Below are positions 9,551-11,236 of a stretch of DNA of 12,351 nucleotides, piece after piece (positions within the stretch are counted from its first letter, which is position 1; every line of letters starts with the position of its first letter). The position numbers and the translations under genes are program-made. The notes under the pieces were generated by a model. That model searched no databases. It worked only from the letters and a program-made list of their open reading frames with translations, and was not told the DNA's origin. The stretch is from Solirubrobacteraceae bacterium (GTDB lineage Bacteria; Actinomycetota; Thermoleophilia; Solirubrobacterales; Solirubrobacteraceae): NCBI GenBank assembly GCA_024710825.1, contig JANJUA010000262.1, positions 1-12,351 on the forward strand, in the 5' to 3' direction.

Positions 9551-9652
9551 TGGACACATCCAGAGGGGTGGAGGGACTGGCCCGATGAAACCCCGGCAAC
9601 CCCCCGCGTATCGCCACGCGGGAAAGGTGCCAATTCCTGTGAGATGTGGCGG
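9551..9652 (+). promoter_or_regulatory. SAM riboswitch aptamer (SAM-I clan, lacking P4)
   Basis: The S-box core is unmistakable: AGAGGGGTGGAGGGA from 9562, TGGCCCGATGAAACC from 9578, GGCAACC at 9595-9601 and GGTGCCAATTCC at 9626-9637. P1 is CACATC (9555-9560) with GATGTG (9643-9648). P2 closes with GGGG (9565-9568) and CCCC (9591-9594). The standard pseudoknot is TGGC (9578-9581) with GCCA (9629-9632). P3 is CCCGCG (9603-9608) with CGCGGG (9617-9622), loop 9609-9616. Between AATTCC and the P1 3' strand are only five bases (9638-9642), so the P4 hairpin of ordinary SAM-I aptamers is missing, as in SAM-IV and SAM-I/IV variants. The P3 loop CGCCA (9612-9616) can pair with TGGCG (9647-9651) in the 3' tail. 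It should sense S-adenosylmethionine and switch off the genes downstream. Confidence 0.93.
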
Positions 9653-9664
9653 CAGGTTCCTTGC

Positions 9665-9694
9665 AGACCTTCGCCACCCGATCGGCGGAGGTTT
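9665..9694 (+). promoter_or_regulatory. Expression platform: hairpin burying the thrC Shine-Dalgarno
   Basis: Bases 9668-9675 (CCTTCGCC) pair with 9684-9691 (GGCGGAGG): eight pairs, one G-U, with an eight-base loop. Three weaker pairs extend the stem to 9665/9694. The 3' arm contains GGAGG (9687-9691), which lies seven bases before the ATG at 9699, so the closed hairpin hides the ribosome binding site. The 5' arm can instead pair with the riboswitch tail (GTGGCGG 9646-9652 with TCGCCAC 9671-9677, last pair G-U), which would free the site. No U-tract follows, so control is probably translational. Confidence 0.75.
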
Positions 9695-9698
9695 CATC

Positions 9699-10961
9699 AT
9701 GGCCGGGACCAATCTGAAGTGCAGGGAATGTGCGACGACCTACGAGCTCGAGCCTCGGTACGTATGCGAGCAGTGCTTCGGCCCGCTCGAGGTCGCCTAC
9801 GACCATTCGCGCTTCGTCGACGACGTCGGCGCGCTGCGGCGCCGCATCCAGGGCGGCCCGCAGAACATCTGGCGCTACGGCGACTTCCTGCCGCTCGACG
9901 GGCCGCCCGGCCCCGCGCTGCGTAGCGCCTCGCGGGTCGGCCTGCCGGCCGGCTGCACGCCGCTGCTGCGCGCCGACCGCCTGGCCGAGCGCGTCGGCCT
10001 CGGCGAGGTGTGGGTCAAGAACGACGCCCACAACCCGACGCACTCGTTCAAGGACCGCGTCGTGGCGGTCGCCTCCCAGCGCGCCAGGGAGCTCGGCTTC
10101 GACACGCTCGCGTGCGCGTCGACCGGCAACCTCGCCAACGCGGTCGCCGCGCAGGCCGCGGCGCTGGGGCTGCCGTCCTACGTCTTCATCCCGTCCGACC
10201 TGGAGGAGCAGAAGATCCTCGCGACCGGCGTCTACGGGACGAACCTCGTGAAGGTGCGCGGCAACTACGACGACGTCAACCGGCTGTGCACCGAGCTGTC
10301 GGGCGAGCGGGAGGGCTGGGCGTTCGTGAACGTCAACATGCGCCCGTACTACGCCGAGGGCTCGAAGACGCTCTCCTACGAGATCGCCGAGCAGCTCGGC
10401 TGGGCGACGCCGGACCGCGTCGTCGCGCCCATCGCGTCGGGGTCGCTGTTCACCAAGATCGCCAAGGGCTTCGAGGAGTGGCTGGAGCTCGGCCTGATCG
10501 AGGGCTCGGTGCCGACGATGAACGGCGCCCAGGCGGTCGGCTGCTCGCCGGTCGCCCAGGCCTTCGACGCCGGCGCCGACGTCTGCCGTCCGGTCAAGCC
10601 CGACACGATCGCCAAGTCGCTGGCGATCGGCAACCCCGCCGACGGGCCCTACGCGCTCGAGCTCGCCCGCCGGACCGGCGGCGCGATCGACGCGGTCGAC
10701 GACGACGAGATCCGGGCGGGCATCAGGCTGCTGGCGGAGACCACCGGCATCTTCACGGAGACCGCCGGCGGGGTGACGACGGCGACGCTGGCGAAGCTCG
10801 CCGCACGCGGCGACATCGGCGCCGACGAGAAGGTCGTGATCGTGATCACCGGCGATGGGCTGAAGACGCTCGACGCGGTGCGCGACACGTTCGAGTCCTA
10901 CGAGATCGAGCCGCGCCTGGAGGCCTTCGAGGCGGCGGTGGAGCAGGGGGTGCACGTCTGA
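9699..10961 (+). CDS. thrC: Threonine-synthase-family PLP enzyme with zinc ribbon (possible homocysteine synthase)
   Basis: This 420-aa fold-type II PLP enzyme is homologous to threonine synthase, which converts O-phosphohomoserine to threonine. The N-terminal zinc ribbon has C8, C11, C23 and C26 (KCRECA, VCEQCFGPLEV), as in many archaeal and actinobacterial ThrC. The PLP-binding lysine is K118 in NPTHSFKDR, and the phosphate loop is STGNLANA from S141. The C-terminal TGDGLKTLDAV corresponds to the usual GNGLK segment. ATG 9699 is chosen because GGAGG lies seven bases upstream; the frame is open further upstream, but that part is the riboswitch. The stop overlaps the sulfur carrier gene as TGATG. 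Control by a SAM riboswitch and pairing with a CysO-type carrier fit a sulfur-incorporating (homocysteine-forming) role better than threonine synthesis. That is inference; plain threonine synthase remains the default annotation. Confidence 0.92.
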   Translation: MAGTNLKCRECATTYELEPRYVCEQCFGPLEVAYDHSRFVDDVGALRRRIQGGPQNIWRYGDFLPLDGPPGPALRSASRVGLPAGCTPLLRADRLAERVGLGEVWVKNDAHNPTHSFKDRVVAVASQRARELGFDTLACASTGNLANAVAAQAAALGLPSYVFIPSDLEEQKILATGVYGTNLVKVRGNYDDVNRLCTELSGEREGWAFVNVNMRPYYAEGSKTLSYEIAEQLGWATPDRVVAPIASGSLFTKIAKGFEEWLELGLIEGSVPTMNGAQAVGCSPVAQAFDAGADVCRPVKPDTIAKSLAIGNPADGPYALELARRTGGAIDAVDDDEIRAGIRLLAETTGIFTETAGGVTTATLAKLAARGDIGADEKVVIVITGDGLKTLDAVRDTFESYEIEPRLEAFEAAVEQGVHV

Positions 10962-11236
10962 TGGCCGTCACGGTGAAGATCCCGACGCAGCTACGCGCCG
11001 CGACCGGCGGCGACGCCGACACCACGGTGGAGGGCTCGACGGTCGGCGAGGTCCTGGAGGCGCTCTACGGGCGCTACGACGGACTCCAGGCCCGTATCGC
11101 GGGCGAGGACGGCGAGCTGCGGCGGTTCGTCAACGTCTACGTCGGCGGGGAGGACATCCGGTTCCTCGACGGCCTGGCGACGGCCGTCTCCAGCGGCGGC
11201 GAGGTGACGATCCTGCCGGCGGTCGCCGGCGGCTGA
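10961..11236 (+). CDS. cysO: MoaD/ThiS-family sulfur carrier protein, CysO-like
   Basis: This 91-aa beta-grasp protein has a C-terminal Gly-Gly (ILPAVAGG), the tail that is adenylated by an E1-like enzyme (MoeB/MoeZ type) and converted to a thiocarboxylate. Its start (VTVKIPTQLRAATGG), middle (RRFVNVYVGGEDIRFLDGLAT) and end closely match what I recall of mycobacterial CysO. CysO donates sulfide to the PLP enzyme CysM for cysteine synthesis, with the protease Mec releasing the product. Neither cysM nor a JAMM protease is adjacent here; the partner gene is the threonine-synthase-family enzyme, overlapped by one base (TGATG). The carrier is therefore probably cotranscribed with it, and may be translationally coupled. 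A purine run (AGGGGG) lies upstream at slightly long spacing. MoaD (molybdopterin) or ThiS (thiamin) roles are less likely given the neighbours. Confidence 0.88.
   Translation: MAVTVKIPTQLRAATGGDADTTVEGSTVGEVLEALYGRYDGLQARIAGEDGELRRFVNVYVGGEDIRFLDGLATAVSSGGEVTILPAVAGG

Follow-up and report, generated by a model that had tools for sequence, protein, structure and literature searches.

A SAM-I (S-box) riboswitch followed by two genes, metM and metO, was found in a 12,351-nucleotide stretch of DNA from a Solirubrobacteraceae bacterium (the window), and on sequence grounds the unit very likely serves carrier-dependent homocysteine synthesis from O-phosphohomoserine (Table 1). The gene and RNA parts, their homology to a Streptomyces system, the conserved gene order and the presence of E1 and JAMM genes were established by computation. 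An earlier sequence-only reading of the same DNA had proposed that a paralogue of threonine synthase (ThrC) turns O-phosphohomoserine and carrier sulfur into homocysteine. This is the published MetM/MetO route, to which sequence, gene order and regulation appear to conform, and the function so assigned is very probably correct. The proposal is not novel, however, as the carrier-dependent route had already been published for Streptomyces MetM/MetO. Already known, then, is the MetM/MetO route with its SAM riboswitch; new are the class-wide picture, eight metM genomes in which no carrier adjoins the gene, and an expression platform that probably hides the Shine-Dalgarno sequence.

Table 1. Features of the metM-metO unit, in positions of the window
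Feature	Position	Strand	Details and basis
SAM-I (S-box) riboswitch aptamer	9553..9650	+	RF00162, 78.0 bits, E 2.4e-17
Hairpin, predicted	9665..9694	+	arms 9665-9675 / 9684-9694; occupies metM Shine-Dalgarno; probable expression platform; folding
GCCAC, probable anti-sequestor	9673..9677	+	complementary to GUGGC 9646-9650, 3' strand of aptamer P1; folding, matching changes across 30 loci
Shine-Dalgarno GGAGG of metM	9687..9691	+	sequence
metM, zinc-ribbon fold-type II PLP enzyme, threonine-synthase family, probable homocysteine synthase	9699..10961	+	Pfam, NCBIfam, motifs, tree
metO, ThiS/SAMP1-type sulfur carrier with C-terminal Gly-Gly	10961..11236	+	Pfam, NCBIfam, solved-structure relative

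The enzyme and its carrier

The ATG of metM lies 48 nt past the end of the aptamer, and the 420-residue product scores 248 bits against Pfam PALP and 270.6 bits against TIGR00260, the thrC model of NCBIfam (cut-off 167.1). K118 within NPTHSFKDR, an STGN loop at residues 141-144 and the zinc-ribbon cysteines C8, C11, C23 and C26 are all present. The ThrC of the same genome scores 282.7 bits, and since both proteins pass the cut-off, TIGR00260 fails to separate MetM from ThrC. Three ThrC-type stretches, NPTGSFKDRGM, VNSVNxYRxEGQKT and GNAGN, which are our own choice from alignments and not a published test, do not occur in the window MetM; their counterparts are NPTHSFKDRVV, VNVNMRPYYAEGSKT and IASGS. 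MetM is thus unlike ThrC in the aligned stretches near the cofactor and substrate, while the catalytic-core residues common to ThrC, K118 among them, are all retained. In the tree alignment, NPTxSFKDR is found in 40 of 40 metM-labelled rows and VNx(4-8)YxxEGxKT in 36 of 40, the four rows that depart from the latter as written being L067, L073, L076 and L148.

MetO is a 91-residue protein ending in PAVAGG; its start codon, ATG, overlaps the metM stop codon, TGA, by a single base. The protein scores 53.5 bits against Pfam ThiS and 67.9 bits against SAMP1 (cut-off 60), and its best solved relative is 3dwg_C. The architecture that the sequence-only reading had described, namely a SAM aptamer heading two genes, a zinc-ribbon threonine-synthase-family PLP enzyme with K118 and STGN, a one-base overlap and a carrier with an intact Gly-Gly tail, was therefore recovered in full. 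Nothing evident connects the unit with the other Pfam-matched genes of the window (RecJ, RelA/SpoT, cytochrome bd subunits, DAG-kinase-like, flavin reductase, CorA and a sigma factor).

A 49-row tree placed the window MetM, its class relatives and the Streptomyces group in one clade of 42 rows (support 100/99). Outside it fall the genome's own ThrC, five distant phylum paralogues and a third in-genome paralogue; the long branches of ThrC and the third paralogue drew a program warning, and the exact place of these two is unsure. That third threonine-synthase-like protein (L003, G000:C432, 1417-2664, minus strand) passes no NCBIfam cut-off among those shown and is without NPTxSFKDR. Two genomes of family f6 (L163 in G105, L164 in G039) carry a divergent second metM-like paralogue with 43-45% identity to the window MetM, both forming long branches within the metM clade.

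The riboswitch and the metM leader

The RF00162 match spans the full model (1-108) against a gathering score of 44.4 bits, and it is the sole match in an RNA family scan of the 3.04-Mb, 90%-complete genome. Downstream, folding predicts an 11-bp hairpin that includes the GGAGG site, and the leaders of relatives fold into similar hairpins with changed letters. In a set of 30 loci (the window and 29 relatives), the P1 strand matched its own leader over a mean longest run of 5.07 nt, compared with 4.46 nt for other leaders (0 of 5000 permutations). Paired changes between the P1 strand and the leader, GUGAC with GUCAC and GUGUG with CACAC, agree with an anti-sequestor. Tests on single loci were weaker than the pooled test: the anti-sequestor reached p ≤ 0.05 in 6 of 30 loci and leader folding in 23 of 30, with p values of 0.39 and 0.003, respectively, for the window leader alone.

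The computed accessibility of the Shine-Dalgarno site averaged 0.31 with P1 and 0.33 without it (Wilcoxon p 0.04, 42 loci); without P1 it rose by more than 0.2 in three loci and fell in one. These 42 were scored from 44 loci (the window and 43 others), L074 being left out because its Shine-Dalgarno lies within the aptamer and L145 because its start was not found, and the script-picked start codons are doubtful for several Streptomyces-group loci. As accessibility is nearly equal in both states over the 42 loci, folding was rejected as a proof of switching. Neither an intrinsic terminator nor a sigma-70 promoter was found. Translation of metM is likely to be controlled by the SAM switch.

Other genes of the genome

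The assembly comprises 444 contigs; the closest named relatives of its proteins belong to Solirubrobacteraceae (87% identity), within the NCBI class Thermoleophilia. The second thrC that the sequence-only reading had suggested looking for, together with hom and thrB, lies in a separate hom-thrC-thrB row (L004; homoserine dehydrogenase 214.7, thrC 282.7 and GHMP kinase 56.7 bits). The Mec-type JAMM and MoeZ-type genes that it had also named were found as well: contig C120 (L057, 294-3366) carries in a row a rhodanese-ThiF E1, a CysO-like carrier, CysM and a JAMM protease, the E1 being the genome's single ThiF-family match. The C120 carrier is 49% identical to MetO and ends in GGAC; unlike MetO, which ends in GG, it would need trimming to expose Gly-Gly.

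Of the conventional genes sought (metX, metY and metB), metX is present, starting at base 5 of contig C122 (NF001209, 497.2 bits, cut-off 331), so the supposition that the genome is free of metX was rejected. MetY was not found in the 444-contig assembly, though the sister species genome (G053) has metY-metX. Two Cys_Met_Meta_PP proteins (on C255 and C290) pass no curated cut-off among the best 25 matches shown for each. With metX here and metY-metX in the sister genome, a conventional O-acetylhomoserine route is also likely, and the MetM route is probably not this genome's only homocysteine route. The sequence-only reading had held that it would be contradicted if the genome had just one thrC and a full conventional pathway besides; a separate ThrC exists, and the conventional pathway is in part present, through metX.

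Distribution across the class and the phylum

Among 120 genomes of Thermoleophilia, which are akin and do not give independent counts, metM (called at E ≤ 1e-60) occurs in 63. A riboswitch lies upstream on the same strand in 60 of these, under survey filters that were stricter and lost weak matches. The exceptions are G093 and G097, at contig edges, and the divergent G105; in G093 the switch precedes the metM N-terminus on another contig, the locus being split between contigs. A carrier follows within 600 nt downstream of metM in 53 of 63 genomes. The conservation of riboswitch, metM and carrier that the sequence-only reading had proposed to survey is thus evident in the class.

The 83 riboswitch places found in the survey comprise 60 before metM, at least 8 before a Cys_Met_Meta_PP gene and 15 left over. 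Five of the latter were read: one belongs to metM of G093, two (G080 and G039) to a fusion gene, and the others lie in G105 and G118. In the two fusion cases (L166 in G080 and L167 in G039, family f6), the SAM-I riboswitch stands directly before a homocysteine S-methyltransferase/methylenetetrahydrofolate reductase (MTHFR) fusion.

The check for other routes covered MetX (E ≤ 1e-60; a 500-bit model cut-off was reached by 0 of 120 genomes and by no control genome), Cys_Met_Meta_PP (MetY/MetB-type, E ≤ 1e-50) and DUF39. DUF39/HcyBio was found in none of the 120 class genomes. Twenty-three metM genomes have no MetX or Cys_Met_Meta_PP match, and all 23 have both the switch and an adjacent carrier. 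Conversely, 28 of 69 MetX genomes also have metM, and the window's genome has metX too, which shows metM to be no simple substitute. Sixteen genomes are without metM and MetX, three of them also without Cys_Met_Meta_PP. A JAMM match is present in 61 of the 63 metM genomes and 23 of the 57 others; the two metM genomes without one (G054 and G065) are both among the 23 without another route, which counts against JAMM being essential.

Beyond the class, a profile scan of named genomes gave 572 relatives, from which the best 80 by likeness to a Streptomyces-type query were used; these are Streptomyces, allied genera and one Nakamurella, and share 54-58% identity with the window MetM. A carrier lies directly downstream in 77 of these best 80 of 572, in keeping with the statement of the sequence-only reading that a second thrC stands beside a MoaD-like gene in Streptomyces. 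In two of the remaining three, the sequence ends less than 100 bases past metM; the third, from Nakamurella, shows no carrier in 2,500 bases. All 20 named loci scanned out of the 80 have RF00162 just before metM, and since this pairing also holds in 60 of 63 class genomes, the association of riboswitch and metM goes beyond chance. Of seven other phylum loci, including four that are Streptomyces-like, all have RF00162 and six have the carrier. Across the phylum, metM-like genes occur in 114 of 296 genomes, four of them through distant paralogues only (34-41% identity). A plasmid hit was rejected, the 11.85-Mb Nonomuraea gerenzanensis record being probably a chromosome; there was no other plasmid match.

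Comparison with known systems

In the Streptomyces system studied by Hasebe and colleagues, thiocarboxylated MetO is reportedly the sulfur donor, and the system is said to be widely distributed. MetM itself is described as a Streptomyces homocysteine synthase converting O-phosphohomoserine (Hasebe et al. 2024, doi 10.1128/aem.01247-24, via the accessible text of PMC12172450), and the same text names metO as a sulfur-carrier gene and reports that S. albulus metM is preceded by a SAM riboswitch. The unit in the window shares with that of S. albulus the enzyme family, the adjoining carrier gene and the upstream riboswitch; it differs in that its genome also has metX, and in sequence, MetM being 54-58% identical to other Streptomyces-group homologues. 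A Microcystis homologue, with 51.6% identity to S. albulus MetM and a metO-like neighbour, is described in the accessible text of PMC12172450 as mainly a threonine synthase and deaminase in vitro that did not raise methionine in cells; an unidentified product ran near methionine, and a SAM riboswitch was reported absent from Microcystis.

ThrC resembles MetM in its fold family, catalytic lysine and presumed substrate, O-phosphohomoserine, whereas MetM forms a separate clade, has changed active-site stretches and comes with a carrier and a SAM switch. The CysO/CysM/Mec system of Mycobacterium tuberculosis, whose homologue lies on C120, likewise joins a fold-type II PLP enzyme to a MoaD-type carrier; the substrate of CysM is O-phosphoserine (accessible text of PMC12910592), and the window enzyme, unlike CysM, is of the ThrC family. 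A further parallel is the Wolinella HcyS route, a carrier-dependent route to homocysteine (Krishnamoorthy and Begley 2011, as cited in the accessible text of PMC5764234), in which a protein thiocarboxylate is the sulfur source, as proposed for MetM/MetO. The fold type of the Wolinella enzyme is not homologous to that of MetM. That enzyme is reportedly of the MetY type. No literature on MetM in Thermoleophilia was found in a search that covered subscription papers thinly and is weak evidence of absence.

Proposed mechanism and alternatives

We infer the reaction, the sulfur donor, the release of the adduct and the translational control as follows. The rhodanese-ThiF E1 of C120 would convert the Gly-Gly end of MetO to a thiocarboxylate. 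Using PLP, MetM would activate O-phosphohomoserine in the manner of ThrC, and the carrier sulfur would attack instead of water to give homocysteine, with the Mec-type JAMM protease perhaps cleaving the product off a carrier adduct. At high SAM, the aptamer would fold and the downstream hairpin would hide the metM Shine-Dalgarno. The proposal is supported by the Streptomyces precedent, the clade, the gene order, the switch placement, the JAMM skew and the 23 genomes without another route; against it stand the acceptance of MetM by the thrC model, the Microcystis result, metX in the genome and the three genomes without any of metM, MetX and Cys_Met_Meta_PP.

MetM could instead be an ordinary threonine synthase, the second in the genome; its SAM control would then reflect the fact that O-phosphohomoserine is common to threonine and methionine synthesis, and the carrier would serve another purpose. 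The thrC model and the threonine synthase activity of the Microcystis homologue (accessible text of PMC12172450) point this way, yet the genome already has a canonical hom-thrC-thrB locus, a SAM-repressed threonine synthase would have no obvious use, and both the separate clade with its altered cofactor and substrate stretches and the adjoining carrier (53 of 63 class genomes, 77 of the best 80 of 572 named loci) argue for a different role; we regard it as highly improbable. Somewhat better placed, but still unlikely, is a dual enzyme making threonine and homocysteine from O-phosphohomoserine as sulfur or carrier supply dictates. The retention of all ThrC-common core residues, such as K118, would suit such an enzyme, as would the Microcystis homologue's combination of threonine synthase activity with a product near methionine (accessible text of PMC12172450); a dedicated ThrC in the genome speaks against it, and a methionine role is the best fit to SAM control.

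That the carrier works in cysteine, molybdopterin or thiamin synthesis and adjoins metM by accident has very little probability. MetO is indeed CysO-like, by its identity to the C120 carrier and its best solved relative, 3dwg_C; however, another carrier is encoded elsewhere in the genome, within the E1-CysO-CysM-Mec row, and the pairing with metM is conserved over the same class genomes and named loci. Carrier-dependent homocysteine synthesis by MetM and MetO remains the preferred reading.

Genomes without an adjacent carrier

Ten metM genomes have no adjacent carrier: G003, G009, G015, G039, G085, G094, G098 and G105, of families f6/f9, and G023 and G110, the latter at a contig end. The locus of G023 (L171, 1761-3020) has metM and the switch with no adjacent carrier match; its close f1 relatives have the carrier. 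In all eight f6/f9 genomes, a search with P0002 located a carrier gene away from metM, at a distance of 0.9 to 1.7 kb from JAMM, and the SAM switch is kept before metM in seven of the eight. These lineages raise the question of which carrier feeds MetM. A twofold suggestion, tentative and on balance rather doubtful, is that MetM is the sole homocysteine-forming enzyme in part of the class (the 23 of 120 genomes without another known route) and that the f6/f9 MetM, which lacks a dedicated carrier gene and lies behind a SAM switch in seven of eight genomes, draws sulfur from the CysO-like carrier beside JAMM; cysteine and homocysteine synthesis would then depend on a single shared carrier and a single E1. 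The f6/f9 genomes would be explained equally well by free sulfide as the sulfur source or by a carrier too diverged to be found at E ≤ 1e-6.

In family f8, the P0002 search found one carrier in 12 of 17 genomes. A single shared carrier there, with MetO also feeding cysteine synthesis, was rejected because the E1-JAMM clusters of L068 (G048) and L054 (G066) have a second, ThiS-like carrier. This small protein ends in GGGSCLI and accompanies E1 and JAMM, the names being taken from translations; in L068, a cysteine-synthase-like gene lies beside the carrier-E1-JAMM cluster.

Significance

As NCBIfam labels metM a threonine synthase, bacteria that depend on MetM can look like methionine auxotrophs. 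Judging from the survey, many of the uncultured actinobacteria in this class could plausibly be dependent in this way. Further, Acidimicrobium ferrooxidans is among the organisms listed as having no known homocysteine route (Price et al. 2018, accessible text of PMC5764234), and given the metM-like genes in 114 of 296 phylum genomes, the MetM route is a candidate answer for this organism too.
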